From contig JAFPAQ010000223.1 in assembly GCA_017424235.1 (NCBI GenBank), positions 1 through 47,820 on the forward strand: a stretch of 47,820 nt of DNA, given 5' to 3'. Shown piece after piece: positions 2,792-41,290 of this stretch. Origin of the DNA: Lachnospiraceae bacterium. Its GTDB lineage: Bacteria; Bacillota; Clostridia; Lachnospirales; Lachnospiraceae. Numbering within the stretch: the first letter of the stretch is position 1; each line of letters starts with the position of its first letter. Position numbers and translations under genes: made by a program. The notes beneath the pieces were generated by a model, which made no database searches, had not been told where the DNA came from, and worked only from the letters and a program-made list of their open reading frames with translations.

Positions 2792-4057
2792 TTACACTAT
2801 ACGGCGAACAGTGATTATTGGTTTATAGGTTGCATAGCTGATTTTTATGCCTGTTTTAGCTGAACTTGCATGCACAATCTTGCCATTGCCAATATACAAA
2901 GCTACATGTCCTGCATAGCATATTATATCTCCGGGCTGGGCATCTGCATAAGCGACCTCCTTGCCCGCACTTCTCTGAGAAAATGAATTTCTTGGAATGG
3001 AATATCCATGTGCTTTATAAACTCCCTGGGTAAAACCTGAACAGTCTGTACCATTAGTAAGACTTGTACCACCTGCAACATATGGACATCCCACAAATCC
3101 ACAGGCATAAATCGCAATCTCTTTACCCTTTGCGCTGCCATTGCAGGCATTGATTTCGCTTGTATTTACTGTAGCTGTTCCTTTTGGCTTGGAAGTGGTC
3201 TGAGAACTGCTATTAGAATTTCCATTGTTAGCTTTCTTTTTTGCGGCTTCTTCAGCTGCCTTTTTTCTCCTTGCCTCTTCTTCAGCCTTTTTTCTTGCCT
3301 CTTCCTCAAGCTTCTTTATTTCAGCATTCTGCTTCTTTATCTTGGTTTTATAAACCTCTGCCTGCTGCTTTGCCTTGCTTATCTGCACAGCATAATCAGC
3401 ACTTATCTGCTCAAGCTCAGCTCTTGCTGCTTCAACACCTTCCTGCTCCTCCTTAAGACCATCCTGACAGGCTTCAAGCTCTGATTCTTCTATCTCCAGT
3501 TCCTCTTTAAGCTCTTCTACTCTCTGTCTGGCTGCCTTATAATCCAAAAGCACCTTCTGGTCATAAGAATGAATCTGTTCAATATAATCTGCCCTGTTAA
3601 GTAAATCCTCCATTGACTTTGCACTGATAAAAATATCAATATAATTTACATCCCCCGCTTCATACATTGAATGTATCCGCTCTTTCATTATACTGTACTG
3701 GTCATTTTCAACCTTTATTGCCGCTTCAAGGTCTTTCTGGGCCTGTACTATCTCTTCCTGCTTTTGAGCAATCTCTTCTTCAAGCAGACTGATACTTGCA
3801 ATAAGCTCAGCTATCTGATTGCCAAGAGTAGCTATCTCATCCTCAATACCCTCTTTTTCACCGGTAAGATCATCAATCTGTTCATTGATCTCATCAACCT
3901 TTTGCTGATCCTTTTTATTCTGATCTTTAAGATCCTTTATTTTGTCGGCTTTTACATAAACCATATCTTTGTTTACTGTTCCCGCTTCAAACACAATCAC
4001 CAGACCAAGCACTACTGCAAGCAAAGTCCTTAATAATCTATTAGTCCTTATACTCAT
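2792..4057 (-). CDS. NlpC/P60 peptidoglycan endopeptidase with coiled coil
   Basis: Secreted cell-wall hydrolase, predicted gamma-D-glutamyl-diaminopimelate (DL-) endopeptidase. In the 421-residue form: signal peptide or anchor at 5-30, long heptad-rich coiled coil about 38-275 (PcsB-like, charged, Lys/Glu/Ala rich at its end), a Ser/Asn/Thr linker about 276-300, then an NlpC/P60 domain with Cys339 (GTDCSGF), His384 (AGHVALYIG) and His396 (KIVHASS). The start at 4057 is chosen because GAGGA (4061-4065) precedes it; the ATG eight codons upstream has no Shine-Dalgarno. PcsB-type coiled coils are usually regulated by FtsEX, but no ftsEX gene is in the window. Likely role: septum splitting or wall turnover. 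Confidence 0.9.
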   Translation of the reverse strand: MSIRTNRLLRTLLAVVLGLVIVFEAGTVNKDMVYVKADKIKDLKDQNKKDQQKVDEINEQIDDLTGEKEGIEDEIATLGNQIAELIASISLLEEEIAQKQEEIVQAQKDLEAAIKVENDQYSIMKERIHSMYEAGDVNYIDIFISAKSMEDLLNRADYIEQIHSYDQKVLLDYKAARQRVEELKEELEIEESELEACQDGLKEEQEGVEAARAELEQISADYAVQISKAKQQAEVYKTKIKKQNAEIKKLEEEARKKAEEEARRKKAAEEAAKKKANNGNSNSSSQTTSKPKGTATVNTSEINACNGSAKGKEIAIYACGFVGCPYVAGGTSLTNGTDCSGFTQGVYKAHGYSIPRNSFSQRSAGKEVAYADAQPGDIICYAGHVALYIGNGKIVHASSAKTGIKISYATYKPIITVRRIV

Positions 4058-4117: not shown

Positions 4118-4195
4118 CGAGTAGGAGGGAATTTATTTCCTCCTACTCGCCCGCGAGCCTCATGTCCGTAAGGACAAATTTCATCTATGAGGCTC
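4118..4195. repeat. Two adjacent hairpins, the second nested
   Basis: Hairpin 1: 11-bp perfect stem CGAGTAGGAGG (4118-4128) with 4139-4149. Hairpin 2: 9-bp stem GAGCCTCAT (4155-4163) with 4187-4195, enclosing a second hairpin GTCC-GTAA-GGAC (4164-4175). It lies between the foldase stop and the hydrolase start. Neither stem has a good U-tail on the minus strand, so simple termination is not convincing. It could be a REP-like repeat or a processing/stability structure. Confidence 0.5.
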
Positions 4196-4203
4196 TGTGA
4201 TAA

Positions 4204-5403
4204 TTAATCAGCTATTTCCGTTGTTTCTTCATTTTCATTGACTTCTATATCAACAGCTACAACATTTATCTTATTTTTGATACTGTCCATAACCTTTTCT
4301 GACAATACTGACATTCTATATGAAGTATATCCCACATCTTCTATAAAATCATTGCCTGATGTATATCCATACTGAAATGCTTCTTCATCTGCAAGCTTAA
4401 GTATCTCCTCCTTTGAAAGAGTAATTCCTTCTTTTCTTGAGAGGGCTTCTATTATCATATAGCTTTTTACAGTAAGCGCAACTCCTTCCGTAAGCTGTTC
4501 ATCAAATTCCTCGATTGTCATATTCTGCTCTTTAAGTGCATCCTCCATTGATTTCTGATAATAGTTTTCATACATCTTCTCGAGATAATTTTTATAATTT
4601 TGAACCTCTTCCTCAACAAAATATTCAGGAGCATCCTTTAAAAATACTGTTTCTTCATTTATCTTAGTCTGAATTTCACTTAGCACACTTGCATCAAAAC
4701 TGTCATCCGCACTCTTTTGAACTGCTTCTTTTCCTGCTTCCCATACTTCTTCTTTTGTCTTATAGGCAATACCCATCTCGGCCATCTGTTCTTCTGTTAC
4801 AGTCGCATAGTTTGCACTTTCAACGATTCCATTGACTGTAACCGTAAAAACTACCGGCTGTCCTGCAAGCTCTGTATTTACATAATCCTCCGGAAAAGAA
4901 ATCTCAAGGTCTTTTGTCTCTCCGGGCATTACTCCGACAAGCCCTTCTTCAAACCCCGGTATAAATGTACCTGAGCCTATTGAAAGATTATATCCCTGTG
5001 CTGTTCCTCCCTGAAAAGCCACACCGTCTTTTTTTCCTACATAATCAATATTTGCAGTATCGCCTTCTTTTACAGCACGATTCTTTATCATACCCTCTAA
5101 AAGATTTGCATCAATATATTCTTCTATCTGGGCATCTGAAACTAATGGCTTATTCACTTCAATAGTCATATTTTCATAATCAGGAAGTTTTACATATTCT
5201 GTAATGTTGATTTCTTCCATGCTTACATAGTCGGCTCTGTCACTTACCTTTTCTTCCTTTGAAGAGTCCTTATCTTCTACATCTGATTTCGCTTCACTTG
5301 AAACTTCAGTAGTATTATCACTGTTTGCATTCTTCTGACCACAGGCACATACATTTAATGTCATAACTCCTGCAAGTATCATAATAGCTATTTTCTTTTT
5401 CAT
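4204..5403 (-). CDS. Lipoprotein FKBP-type peptidyl-prolyl isomerase, trigger-factor-like
   Basis: Predicted surface-anchored foldase of 399 residues. A lipoprotein signal ends VCAC-G with lipidated Cys21; an acidic Ser/Glu/Asp linker follows (22-60). An FKBP-type domain spans about 112-193 (GDTANIDYVGKKDG, FIPGFEEGLVGVMPGE, VVFTVTVNGI), and the rest is helical and resembles the C-terminal chaperone region of trigger factor. The whole looks like an exported trigger-factor paralogue, common in Lachnospiraceae. Role inferred: folding of secreted proteins outside the membrane. The start is preceded by AAGGTTAGG. Its leader carries an 8-bp hairpin (5437-5460). It is not the cytoplasmic tig gene, because of the lipobox. 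Confidence 0.85.
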   Translation of the reverse strand: MKKKIAIMILAGVMTLNVCACGQKNANSDNTTEVSSEAKSDVEDKDSSKEEKVSDRADYVSMEEINITEYVKLPDYENMTIEVNKPLVSDAQIEEYIDANLLEGMIKNRAVKEGDTANIDYVGKKDGVAFQGGTAQGYNLSIGSGTFIPGFEEGLVGVMPGETKDLEISFPEDYVNTELAGQPVVFTVTVNGIVESANYATVTEEQMAEMGIAYKTKEEVWEAGKEAVQKSADDSFDASVLSEIQTKINEETVFLKDAPEYFVEEEVQNYKNYLEKMYENYYQKSMEDALKEQNMTIEEFDEQLTEGVALTVKSYMIIEALSRKEGITLSKEEILKLADEEAFQYGYTSGNDFIEDVGYTSYRMSVLSEKVMDSIKNKINVVAVDIEVNENEETTEIAD

Positions 5404-37264: not shown

Positions 37265-38644
37265 ATGTATCAAATAAATTTTAATCAGCCAATTCACATA
37301 CATTTTATGGGCATAGGTGGAATAAGCATGTCAGGACTTGCTCAGATACTTTTGGAGGCAGGATTTACTGTATCAGGTTCAGACTCCAAAAAATCACCAC
37401 TTACCGAACAGCTCACACATATGGGCGCAAGCATAAAATATCCTCAGATGGCAAGCAATATTACCAAAGACATAGATCTGGTAGTATATACTGCTGCAAT
37501 ATCCGGTGACAATCCTGAATTTGTAGAAGCAAAAAATCAAAACCTTCCTATGATAACAAGGGCTGAACTTCTTGGTCAGATAATGAAAAATTATAAAACT
37601 CCAATAGCCATAAGTGGTACACATGGCAAAACCACTACCACATCAATGATATCAGAAATACTTATGGCTGCTGACACTGACCCAACTCTTTCAATTGGTG
37701 GTATTCTCAAATCCATCGGTGGAAATATACGTGTCGGAAAATCCGATTACTTTGTTACAGAAGCCTGTGAGTATACCAATTCTTTTTTAAGCTTCTTCCC
37801 ACGCATAAGCATCATTCTTAATGTAGAAGAAGACCATATGGATTTCTTTAAGGACATAGATGATATACGCAGTTCCTTCAAAAAATTTGCAAACCTTCTT
37901 CCGGATGACGGATATCTTATAATAAATGGAAGCATAGAAAAGCTCGACCTTATCACAGAAGGACTTGGCTGCAAGGTAATTACCTTCGGAAAAGATAATA
38001 AATGCAATTACAGCTTTACAGATGAAAGCTATGATGAATTCGGAAGAGGTTCTTATACATTATTAAAAGATGGCAGCAAAGTCTGCACTATAAAGCTTGG
38101 TGTTGTTGGAGAACATAATATAATCAATTCACTTTCTGCTATCGCACTTATGGATATCCTTGGAATCGAACCGGATACTGTACGCAGCGCACTGTCAAAC
38201 TTTACAGGTACAGACAGACGTTTTGAAATAAAGGGTACTGTTGGTGGAGTCACAATACTTGATGACTATGCACATCATCCAACAGAGATAGAAGCTACCT
38301 TAAAGGCGGCTGCAAATTATCCACACAAAACCTTATGGTGTGTATTCCAGCCACATACATATACAAGAACAAATGCCTTTTTAGGTGATTTTGCCAAAGC
38401 TCTTACCCTTGCTGACAAAGTCATACTTACCGATATTTATGCTGCACGTGAAAAGAATACTTTGGGGATTTCCTCAGTTGATCTTCAAAAAGAGATACAA
38501 AAATATGATAAAGAATGTCTGTATTTTCCTACTTTCGACGAAATTGAAAATTTTTTATTAGAAAATTGTATCAACGGAGATTTGTTGATAACTATGGGTG
38601 CCGGAGATGTAGTAAAAATCGGTGAAAACCTGTTAGGCAAATAA
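37265..38644 (+). CDS. murC: UDP-N-acetylmuramate-L-alanine ligase
   Basis: Adds L-alanine to UDP-MurNAc, the first amino-acid step of peptidoglycan precursor synthesis. 459 residues: N-terminal GIGGISMSG (17-25) UDP-binding loop, ATP P-loop GTHGKTTTT (118-126), catalytic region TEACEYTNSFL, and YAHHPTEI in the C-terminal domain. All three Mur-ligase domains complete. AAAGGAAG precedes the start. It is not in the usual dcw cluster here. A DnaA-box cluster starts directly after its stop codon. Confidence 0.97.
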   Translation: MYQINFNQPIHIHFMGIGGISMSGLAQILLEAGFTVSGSDSKKSPLTEQLTHMGASIKYPQMASNITKDIDLVVYTAAISGDNPEFVEAKNQNLPMITRAELLGQIMKNYKTPIAISGTHGKTTTTSMISEILMAADTDPTLSIGGILKSIGGNIRVGKSDYFVTEACEYTNSFLSFFPRISIILNVEEDHMDFFKDIDDIRSSFKKFANLLPDDGYLIINGSIEKLDLITEGLGCKVITFGKDNKCNYSFTDESYDEFGRGSYTLLKDGSKVCTIKLGVVGEHNIINSLSAIALMDILGIEPDTVRSALSNFTGTDRRFEIKGTVGGVTILDDYAHHPTEIEATLKAAANYPHKTLWCVFQPHTYTRTNAFLGDFAKALTLADKVILTDIYAAREKNTLGISSVDLQKEIQKYDKECLYFPTFDEIENFLLENCINGDLLITMGAGDVVKIGENLLGK

Positions 38645-38645
38645 T

Positions 38646-38875
38646 TTATCCACACTATCCACAATTTTTTGAGCCCAAAACGGCAAAAATCATTGTGGAT
38701 ATTTTTATTTTAAATCCACATTTTCCACTTATACTGCCCCCTCCCCCAAAATACTTATTTTATGCATATCACACCCCAAAAGACACATATATTTTTATGA
38801 TGTATCCACATTTTCCACACTATCCACATTTTGCCACAAACCCAGTATTCACAAGGGTTTGAGCGGTGTGGACAC
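38646..38875. promoter_or_regulatory. Dense DnaA-box cluster upstream of dnaD
   Basis: Sites like TTATCCACA, plus strand unless noted: 38646-38654 (perfect), 38655-38663, 38694-38702 (minus), 38712-38720, 38721-38729, 38802-38810, 38811-38819, 38820-38828, 38830-38838, 38845-38853, 38867-38875 (minus). Most match 7-9 of 9 bases. Several abut exactly at 9-bp period, including 38802-38828. It also holds a C-rich tract (CCCCCTCCCCC, about 38737-38747). The last box touches the dnaD -35. Confidence 0.8.
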
Positions 38876-38903
38876 TTGCATTTTTTTAATAGTATGATAC
38901 AAT
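38876..38903 (+). promoter_or_regulatory. Promoter of dnaD
   Basis: TTGCAT (38876-38881), 16-bp AT-rich spacer, TACAAT (38898-38903), directly after the last DnaA box. The leader of about 85 bases contains a short imperfect stem (TAACGTC...GACAGTTA). Confidence 0.65.
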
Positions 38904-38996: not shown

Positions 38997-40193
38997 ATGA
39001 ATCGTGTCAATATTTACAGATCAGTACAAAAACAGGATACTGCTATTTCAAATATATTTATAGATGAATATATGTCTGAGGCAAATGATGCACAGCTCAA
39101 AATATACCTGTTTCTTACTCGTATGATGAGTGCAAATATGCCTACTTGTGTTGCAGATATTGCCGATAAATTTAATTATACAGAAAAGGACGTGCTTCGT
39201 GCGCTCATATACTGGGAATCAAAAAATCTCCTCTCACTTGAATTTGATGCTGCTGATAATCTTACACGCATTGAAATTCTTTCTTTGGAGAATTCATACA
39301 ATGCCATGCCAAGACAGACCACACCGCAGCGCATAACTCCTGTTTTATCATTTGTAAGACCTGCAGGCATGCAAAACAATATGAGAAGAAACAGTATGAT
39401 GATGTCAAGTGGAAGAACTGCTGACAGACGCATAAACAATAATATGACTGCTTCTGTTACCAATACACCTGCTGAAAATGTCAGTGTCTCAAATACAGCT
39501 TGTGCATCCTCAGAAATAGTTAAGCCTGAATACTCTCTTGATGAGCTTAAAAATTTCAAGAGCAATGAGGAAGCAGAACAAATACTGATGATTACTGAAC
39601 AGTACCTTGGAAGACAGCTTGGACGCTCAGATATGGAGACAATACTTTTTATCTATGACAAGCTTAAGTTTAGTCCTGATCTAATAGATTATCTGGTACA
39701 GTACTGTGTCGAACGTGGAAAAAAAGATCTTCGCTATATAGAGAAAGTAGCTCTCAAATGGCATGAACAGGAAATCACTACTCCTGATGAAGCAAAGCTT
39801 AAAAATGCAAAATATGACAAAAGTGTTTATGCGATAATGAAAGCACTTGGTAAAAACTCAAATCCGGCTCCAAAGGAGCTTGAATATATAGAAAAGTGGA
39901 CTAAGGAATATGGTTTTCTTATGGACGTGATACAGGAAGCGTGTGACAAGACTGTCATGACTACTGACACTCATCGTTTTGCCTATGCTGATGGCATACT
40001 GAAGAAATGGTATGAAGCCGGGGTTCATCACAAATCAGATATCCCGGTAGTTGATGCAGCATTTAAAAAAATAAACAATGCTACCCCTAAAACAATCACT
40101 TCAACAACATCGACACCACGCAATAAGTTTAATTCATTCACTCAGAATACTTATGATTTTGATCAGCTCGAAAAAACTTTATTGAGCAATTAA
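38997..40193 (+). CDS. dnaD: DnaD-domain replication initiation protein
   Basis: 398 residues. N-terminal winged-helix region (about 20-95), Asn/Met/Arg/Thr-rich linker (about 105-175), then two DnaD/DnaB-type C-terminal domains, about 180-270 (YCVERGKKDLRYIEKVALKWHEQEI) and about 275-355 (HRFAYADGILKKWYEAGV); both carry the YxxxIxxxW-like signature. Two such domains in one chain resemble Bacillus DnaB as much as DnaD. Predicted to remodel DNA at the origin or at restart forks and recruit the loader coded next. GGAGGAG precedes the start. Confidence 0.92.
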   Translation: MNRVNIYRSVQKQDTAISNIFIDEYMSEANDAQLKIYLFLTRMMSANMPTCVADIADKFNYTEKDVLRALIYWESKNLLSLEFDAADNLTRIEILSLENSYNAMPRQTTPQRITPVLSFVRPAGMQNNMRRNSMMMSSGRTADRRINNNMTASVTNTPAENVSVSNTACASSEIVKPEYSLDELKNFKSNEEAEQILMITEQYLGRQLGRSDMETILFIYDKLKFSPDLIDYLVQYCVERGKKDLRYIEKVALKWHEQEITTPDEAKLKNAKYDKSVYAIMKALGKNSNPAPKELEYIEKWTKEYGFLMDVIQEACDKTVMTTDTHRFAYADGILKKWYEAGVHHKSDIPVVDAAFKKINNATPKTITSTTSTPRNKFNSFTQNTYDFDQLEKTLLSN

Positions 40194-40300: not shown

Positions 40301-40330
40301 AAAAACGTTATGGAAAGGCTTAATATAATA

Positions 40331-41290
40331 ATGGCACTTACAAACAGTCAATATGATATGATAATGCGCTCCTATGAAGAAAAGCAGCGTTTATCAAGAT
40401 ACAATCTGGAAAAGAATTCTGAAATAGTATATCAAAAAATTCCGGAATATGAGATGGTGGAAAAACAGATATCTGCTATTTCGATTGAAAAATGTAAAAA
40501 ACTTTTATCCGGAGATTCCTCTGCGCTTTCAGATTTAAAAGAGCAGTTAAAAAAGCTGTCCGCACTCAAAACCCGGTTATTATTAAAAAATGGATTTCCT
40601 GCTGATTTTCTTACACCAAAATATGAATGTGAACTGTGTAAAGATACAGGATATATAGCGAATCAAAAATGCAGCTGCTTTAGAACTGCCGAAATTGACC
40701 TCATATATGAGCAGTCACATATAAAAAATCTATTAAAGACAGATAACTTTTCTGCTCTCTCTTATGACTATTATGAGGGAGAAGCACTCGAGAAATTCAA
40801 AAATGCTGTACAGATTTGCCAAAATTTTATCAATACATTTCATTTGGACTACCATAATCTGTTTTTTTATGGTACAGTAGGTACAGGTAAATCATTTTTA
40901 TCATGCTGTATCGCAAAAGAAATAATTGAGCAGGGACGTCTGGTAATTTACTTTAGTGCCTCACAATTGTTTGATGCACTTTCAAAAAGTACCTTTGATA
41001 AAGACAGCAAGGAAGCAGTATCAGGTATAACAGAAGACATTTATGAATGCGATCTTCTGATAATAGATGACTTGGGAACAGAACTGACCAATTCATTTGT
41101 TTCATCACAGTTATTCTCCTGCCTGAACAACAGACATCTTAGGAAAAAATCAACAATAATTACAACTAACCTGTCATTGCCTGAGCTTCGCGACAGATAT
41201 TCTGACAGAATATTTTCCCGAATAACGAGCAACTATGATATATGCAAATTGATGGGCTCTGATATAAGAATGAAGAAAAAACTATTATAA
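40331..41290 (+). CDS. dnaI: Helicase loader, DnaC/DnaI type
   Basis: AAA+ ATPase of 319 residues that loads the replicative helicase. N-terminal helical region, a Cys4 zinc motif CELC...CSC (Cys100, 103, 114, 116), Walker A GTVGTGKS (181-188), Walker B LLIIDDLGTE, sensor 1 STIITTNLS and Arg finger region DRIFSRI. The zinc-binding N-terminus and size match Bacillus DnaI rather than E. coli DnaC. Start at 40331 has GGAAAGG about 12 bases upstream; an ATG seven codons earlier lacks one. Follows dnaD, so both act in the same loading step. Confidence 0.92.
   Translation: MALTNSQYDMIMRSYEEKQRLSRYNLEKNSEIVYQKIPEYEMVEKQISAISIEKCKKLLSGDSSALSDLKEQLKKLSALKTRLLLKNGFPADFLTPKYECELCKDTGYIANQKCSCFRTAEIDLIYEQSHIKNLLKTDNFSALSYDYYEGEALEKFKNAVQICQNFINTFHLDYHNLFFYGTVGTGKSFLSCCIAKEIIEQGRLVIYFSASQLFDALSKSTFDKDSKEAVSGITEDIYECDLLIIDDLGTELTNSFVSSQLFSCLNNRHLRKKSTIITTNLSLPELRDRYSDRIFSRITSNYDICKLMGSDIRMKKKLL

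Follow-up and report, generated by a model that had tools for sequence, protein, structure and literature searches.

DnaA-box array in the murC–dnaD gap

The gap between murC and dnaD in this Lachnospiraceae bacterium contains an array of DnaA boxes which is real and conserved in relatives, and which probably serves as a DnaA operator controlling the downstream helicase-loader genes, namely dnaD and a gene for a DnaC/DnaI-type ATPase. The regulatory reading appears well supported by the geometry of the boxes, which in nearly all gaps with a strict extended −10 element lie at one of two fixed distances from that element of the predicted dnaD promoter.

The window, meaning the whole stretch of DNA that was analysed (47,820 nucleotides), was scanned for 9-mers that differ from TTATCCACA at no more than two positions and whose core is restricted. 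Eleven such words were found within 230 bp (38646–38875; Table 1), about eleven having been counted in the first-pass annotation of this DNA, with one perfect box, five boxes with one mismatch and five with two. When the window was simulated 100 times with a first-order Markov model, no 230-bp stretch contained more than five boxes, and the cluster thus exceeds chance at a site outside oriC. The arrangement described in that annotation was also recovered, with three exactly contiguous boxes starting at 38802, 38811 and 38820, a fourth one base away (38830) and two adjacent pairs (38646/38655 and 38712/38721), and the end of the array does carry promoter-like sequence ahead of dnaD. Alignment of relatives showed that the boxes starting at 38646, 38655, 38694 (minus strand) and 38712 (the last within the same genus) and the triple are kept, with those at 38721, 38830 and 38867 being weak and mostly without conservation. 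The boxes at the murC stop are referred to as module A and the contiguous triple as module B. Apart from the array, murC itself carries a further perfect copy of TTATCCACA in its coding sequence (38317–38325).

Table 1. Features of the murC–dnaD region, in coordinates of the window.
Feature	Position	Strand	Basis or remark
murC (UDP-N-acetylmuramate--L-alanine ligase)	37265..38644	+	TIGR01082 over cut-off; Pfam Mur ligase domains
Module A box 1, TTATCCACA, perfect	38646..38654	+	Starts at murC stop
Module A box 2, contiguous with box 1; 5' arm of hairpin	38655..38663	+	Box scan; covariation and fold
Apparent murC intrinsic terminator	38656..38711	+	Hairpin 38656–38701, T-rich tract 38702–38711
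Module A box 3, inverted; 3' arm of hairpin	38694..38702	-	Box scan; covariation and fold
Box 4, AAATCCACA, 18 bp after box 3	38712..38720	+	Kept within genus
Weak box, two mismatches, not conserved	38721..38729	+	Box scan; alignment
Module B, three contiguous boxes GTATCCACA TTTTCCACA CTATCCACA	38802..38828	+	Box scan; alignment of relatives
Weak fourth box, TTTGCCACA	38830..38838	+	Box scan
Genus-conserved 20-mer CCAGTATTCACAAGGGTTTG, with box-like GTATTCACA inside it (38845–38853)	38842..38861	+	
Weak box, GTGTCCACA, abutting the −35 element	38867..38875	-	Box scan; alignment
dnaD promoter predicted by conservation: TTGCAT (38876–38881), 16 bp, extended −10 TGaTACAAT (TACAAT 38898–38903)	38876..38903	+	
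dnaD-domain gene	38997..40193	+	PF07261, TIGR01446
DnaC/DnaI-type AAA+ ATPase, putative helicase loader	40310..41290	+	NF005304 over cut-off; DnaI model below cut-off; PF01695/PF00308

The genus-conserved 20-mer was considered as a general regulator motif and rejected as such: it gave ten matches in 9 of 144 genomes, all in one genus, and eight of the ten lie at the dnaD promoter by their coordinates. Two extra copies were seen in one genome (G018, contigs C305 and C481). A 7-bp hairpin can be drawn within the 20-mer, and when the alignment of relatives was inspected by eye the structure did not look conserved.

Conservation in relatives

A total of 125 dnaD relatives were found, of which 80 were kept (by title Lachnospiraceae, Butyrivibrio, Roseburia, Blautia, Kineothrix and a few Clostridiales, Eubacteriales and Clostridium). 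With 30 further dnaD loci from the organism's own genome and a second genome collection, this gave 110 loci, and the murC–dnaD gap was readable in 105 of them (40 titled Butyrivibrio and 65 others, including the organism's own). Because of relatedness among the genomes and species shared by the two collections, the counts that follow are not independent. At least three boxes were present in 103 of the 105 gaps (63/65 non-Butyrivibrio and 40/40 Butyrivibrio) compared to 2 of 2100 shuffled gaps, and one locus (L057) had both murC and dnaD and no box between them. In 96 gaps (63/65 and 33/40, respectively) the murC stop had a box no more than 10 bases away. A tandem pair near the murC stop was found in 61 of the 65 non-Butyrivibrio gaps, in 60 of them together with an inverted box, and neither arrangement was found in the 40 Butyrivibrio gaps. 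A contiguous pair further down the gap was present in 57/65 and 39/40, respectively. That the boxes might not be conserved at this site in relatives, the outcome which the first-pass annotation had named as fatal to its proposal, was looked at and is contradicted by these counts.

Beyond this set, loci were taken from 29 of 55 relatives in the order and from 8 of 51 genomes of the same family but another genus. Two or more boxes were present in 20 of the 29 order-level loci and in all eight of the same-family loci, compared to 18 of 1450 shuffled order-level gaps, with the remaining nine order-level loci having fewer than two. All 20 of the order-level loci with an array fall among the 24 in which murC lies beside dnaD, a number that includes L176 though its murC end was placed beyond the dnaD start. 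The five loci without a visible murC held at most one box each, and one of these (L182) ends at a contig edge. At the level of the class, the array was found in two of 29 dnaD loci (the best 29 of 94 matching genomes), both from the organism's own family, and two others of these loci had a single box-like word each. Among class-level murC loci (the best 30 of 98 matching genomes) it was found in three of 30, these being the ones beside dnaD; three others had four, three and two scattered box-like words within 400 bp, none of them contiguous. Judged by this distribution, the array is a feature of the murC–dnaD junction.

Box clusters elsewhere in the genomes

The pattern WTCCACA-N(0–25)-WTCCACA had 25 matches in the organism's own genome compared to two for the reversed control. 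Overlapping or neighbouring matches occurred on four contigs, and the genome-wide count suggested in the first-pass annotation, for comparison with the dnaA–dnaN region, yields clusters at oriC (C13), at the array upstream of dnaD (C216), near an NrdG-like gene (C77) and on C84. The C77 cluster consists of four close boxes (3044–3083; L013:1499–1538), 145–176 bp upstream of the NrdG-like radical-SAM gene. A conserved DnaA regulon beyond dnaD was considered and rejected, as at least three boxes upstream of the NrdG-like gene were found in only one of 30 loci (the best 30 of 56 matching genomes, two of the 30 having short upstream sequence), this one being the organism's own. The C84 cluster consists of six boxes between two ORFs (4181–4246; L016:1499–1564), three direct and then three inverted, and the ORF upstream of it had no Pfam match.

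A triple of the core TCCACA repeated every 9 bp gave 48 rows in 43 of 144 genomes, with two genomes (G053 and G063) each counting twice owing to one longer run, and the control pattern gave one. When compared by eye with the dnaD coordinates, 45 of the 48 fall immediately before dnaD. The remaining three are located in the dnaA region of G053 (L173), 3' of a plasmid initiator gene of the Rep3 type (L171) and in a region with ORFs (L172) that look Rhs-like from their translations. The dnaA region of G053 (L173:58–2129, contig C132) has 40 box-like words in approximately 2.1 kb compared to 21 listed for the organism's own dnaA region. At L171 (1683–1709; G037, contig C89) the three contiguous boxes lie approximately 170 bp past the 3' end of the initiator gene and perhaps mark a plasmid origin.

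Spacing between module B and the dnaD promoter

A box run together with an extended −10 element was found in 102 of the 105 gaps, a looser motif being used where the strict one failed. The strict motif, TGnTAnAAT, occurred exactly once in 93 of these and in none of the other nine. From the last box of module B to the strict −10 element the distance was 68–71 bp in 56 of the 93 gaps, 79–82 bp in 36 and 60 bp in one; within the window, the TACAAT lies 69 bases past 38828. The 79–82 bp group is Butyrivibrio, with the exception of L043 (79 bp), whose module ends 9 bp early as only its first two boxes were recognised. The Butyrivibrio spacing is thus shifted by approximately 11–12 bp, about one helical turn. 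In shuffled tails the strict −10 occurred in 2.3% of 2040, with three at 68–71 bp and two at 79–82 bp. The distance from the −10 element to the ATG (39–215 bp) and that between modules A and B (88–224 bp) vary, and therefore it is only the box-to-promoter geometry that is held. Several boxes upstream of the promoter at a conserved spacing are what is expected of a DnaA-regulated promoter. Twelve further order- or family-level loci had a box run, with a strict −10 at 78–79 bp in four, at 121 and 153 bp in two and none in six; the four at 78–79 bp, measured from a box pair, look as if the third box were missing.

The −35 elements are poor, with the best match having two of six consensus bases in 12 loci, three in 74 and four in seven of the 93 promoters. 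A DnaA-like core lies within the core-promoter stretch in one of the 93, the window itself (38867–38875), and one-mismatch boxes near the −10 element were seen in L119 and L125. It should be noted that a simple promoter scan of the window returned three sites against a shuffle mean of 2.6, and the dnaD promoter was not among them; its rival candidate was TGGACA-18-TATGAT at 38869–38898. The distance between modules A and B was also examined for helical phasing using 30 distinct spacings, giving Rayleigh p-values of 0.005 at a period of 11, 0.112 at 10.5 and 0.993 at 10. No phasing is claimed, since several periods were tested one after another on spacings taken from related genomes.

Module A and the apparent murC terminator

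Within module A, approximately 30 bases separate box 2 from the inverted box 3, and T's follow, a feature of the array which the first-pass annotation did not see and which doubles as the apparent murC terminator. The hairpin in the window has a predicted energy of −18.4 kcal/mol (z −5.6). No terminator was reported there by a simple terminator scan, in which the loop was limited to 3–8. An inverted core pair near the murC stop was found in 67 of 142 gaps, with all 40 Butyrivibrio among the 75 lacking it, and the 67 were reduced to 28 non-redundant loci. In these 28 loci, 164 of 224 inner-stem positions pair with their own partner, whereas 2000 permutations gave 105 on average and 130 at most, and at least four T's occur in the eight bases after the stem in 26 (L102 has two and L207 none). 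A stem, a T-run and matching changes in the two arms, as expected of an intrinsic terminator, are therefore all present.

Since such a hairpin covaries and is followed by a T-run, module A could simply be a terminator whose arms are box-like by descent, with DnaA bound by module B alone, and the Butyrivibrio gaps, in which module B is kept and module A's tandem and inverted boxes are missing from all 40, are in line with this. A terminator alone, however, requires neither box 1 nor box-like arms. Box 1 lies outside the stem and is nevertheless kept, being contiguous with box 2 in 61 of the 65 non-Butyrivibrio gaps, and in the alignment of relatives the arms remain box-like while the inner stem drifts. 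The terminator-only explanation is consequently considered rather doubtful, though it is the strongest of the alternatives. A more speculative and less likely suggestion is that module A serves two purposes, the same 9-mers acting in RNA as a terminator stem and in DNA as an inverted repeat bound by DnaA, such that DnaA occupancy would modulate murC termination and read-through into dnaD, or would bridge to module B. If so, cell-wall precursor synthesis, helicase-loader supply and the state of DnaA would be coupled at one junction.

Operator, titration and origin readings

Neither dnaA nor dnaN is in the window, as had been reported; the organism's own DnaA is encoded on contig C13 with dnaN after it, and the PF00308 match within the window is to the DnaC/DnaI-type ATPase. 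This DnaA aligns over its full length with the solved full-length DnaA 8btg, presumably that of B. subtilis, and in its C-terminal part with 1j1v, which we take to be the E. coli DnaA domain with a box. Four roles had been offered for the array in the first-pass annotation, namely titrating DnaA, reactivating it, tying dnaD-loader transcription to it or forming part of a second origin. The third of these is strongly favoured by the fixed distance at which the triple lies from the −10 element; neither titration nor reactivation predicts such a distance to a promoter.

Dense boxes outside oriC would also be expected of a DnaA-titrating cluster which keeps DnaA from oriC and delays initiation, its position at dnaD being incidental, and in B. 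subtilis the removal of six such clusters led to early initiation (PMC5295017). A titrating cluster, though, has no need of a fixed distance to the dnaD −10 or of a fixed tandem and inverted order, and by the locked box-to-promoter spacing, which is an indirect test, the arrangement here is not independent of the neighbouring promoter; titration as the main role is thus improbable. Less probable again is an element like DARS or datA, in which a fixed set of boxes serves DnaA to exchange or hydrolyse its nucleotide. The order and spacing of the module A boxes are held and DARS cores have three boxes (PMC4585315), but the tightest constraint on the array is to a promoter and the terminator accounts for a large part of the module A arrangement. 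Titration or DARS-like action may occur as a side effect of the array. A second replication origin, or part of one, was rejected as almost certainly wrong despite the many boxes next to replication genes, since dnaA–dnaN with its own boxes is located on contig C13, dnaA and dnaD are approximately 45, 239, 250, 287, 471 and 1258 kb apart in six single-contig relatives, and the array lies neither beside dnaA or dnaN nor at a GC-skew switch, the skew being negative in all 4-kb bins of the 47.8-kb window on both sides of it.

Returning to the operator, DnaA sites at a fixed distance before helicase-loader genes, in this bacterium and many relatives, make it probable that DnaA governs how much of its own helper is available. 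Judging from sequence, it is suspected that DnaA occupies the array and affects transcription there. DnaA would assemble on the module B triple and, once bound, would act on RNA polymerase at the dnaD promoter with its poor −35 and extended −10 elements. The module A boxes at the murC stop would add DnaA sites, and as module A would end murC transcription, dnaD would depend on its own promoter. Activation is held to be somewhat likelier than repression, as the poor −35 elements (two to four of six bases) and a box core within the core promoter of only one of 93 loci fit it better than occlusion; the boxes near the −10 element in L119 and L125 and the core at 38867–38875 of the window would fit repression. 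Counted against an operator are the single perfect box in the array, the gap of L057 without a box, the nine of 29 order-level loci with fewer than two boxes, the 27 of 29 class-level dnaD loci without the array (the best 29 of 94 matching genomes) and the nine of 102 gaps without a strict −10 element.

Comparison with known systems

In Caulobacter crescentus the DnaA regulon is reported to include the replicative helicase gene (dnaB), with predicted boxes upstream (PMC8203912), and both there and here clustered DnaA boxes lie upstream of a replication gene. The array differs in that its presumed targets are helicase-loader genes and in that a contiguous triple is locked at 68–71 or 79–82 bp from the −10 element and kept through the family and partly through the order. 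Dense box clusters in a Firmicute are likewise known from B. subtilis, at sda, ywlC, ywcI, yydA, gcp/ydiF and trmE/dnaA/dnaA-dnaN, where the eight strongest in vitro DnaA sites are those seen in vivo, and the clusters named in section 7 of the same paper, as distinct from its list of 269 in vitro sites, do not include dnaD (PMC4447404). A DnaA-dependent response including essential replication genes is also mentioned for B. subtilis (PMC10804225). Like DARS1, DARS2 and datA of E. coli, the array is a small set of boxes in a fixed arrangement outside oriC (PMC4585315), but unlike these its spacing is tied to a promoter. Module A shares with Rho-independent terminators a stem-loop with a T-run, here after murC; in contrast to ordinary ones, it preserves DnaA-box words in both arms and has one more copy, in direct orientation, outside the stem. 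No description of DnaA boxes upstream of dnaD was found in the literature searched, a search which had most subscription journals outside its reach and does not establish absence from print.

If the operator reading is true, a whole bacterial family and part of its order would couple helicase-loader supply to the replication initiator by means of a geometry-locked operator. The stem of the murC terminator would then be an unusual one, made of words resembling protein-binding sites, and a feedback or feed-forward loop at initiation would become directly testable in these bacteria.
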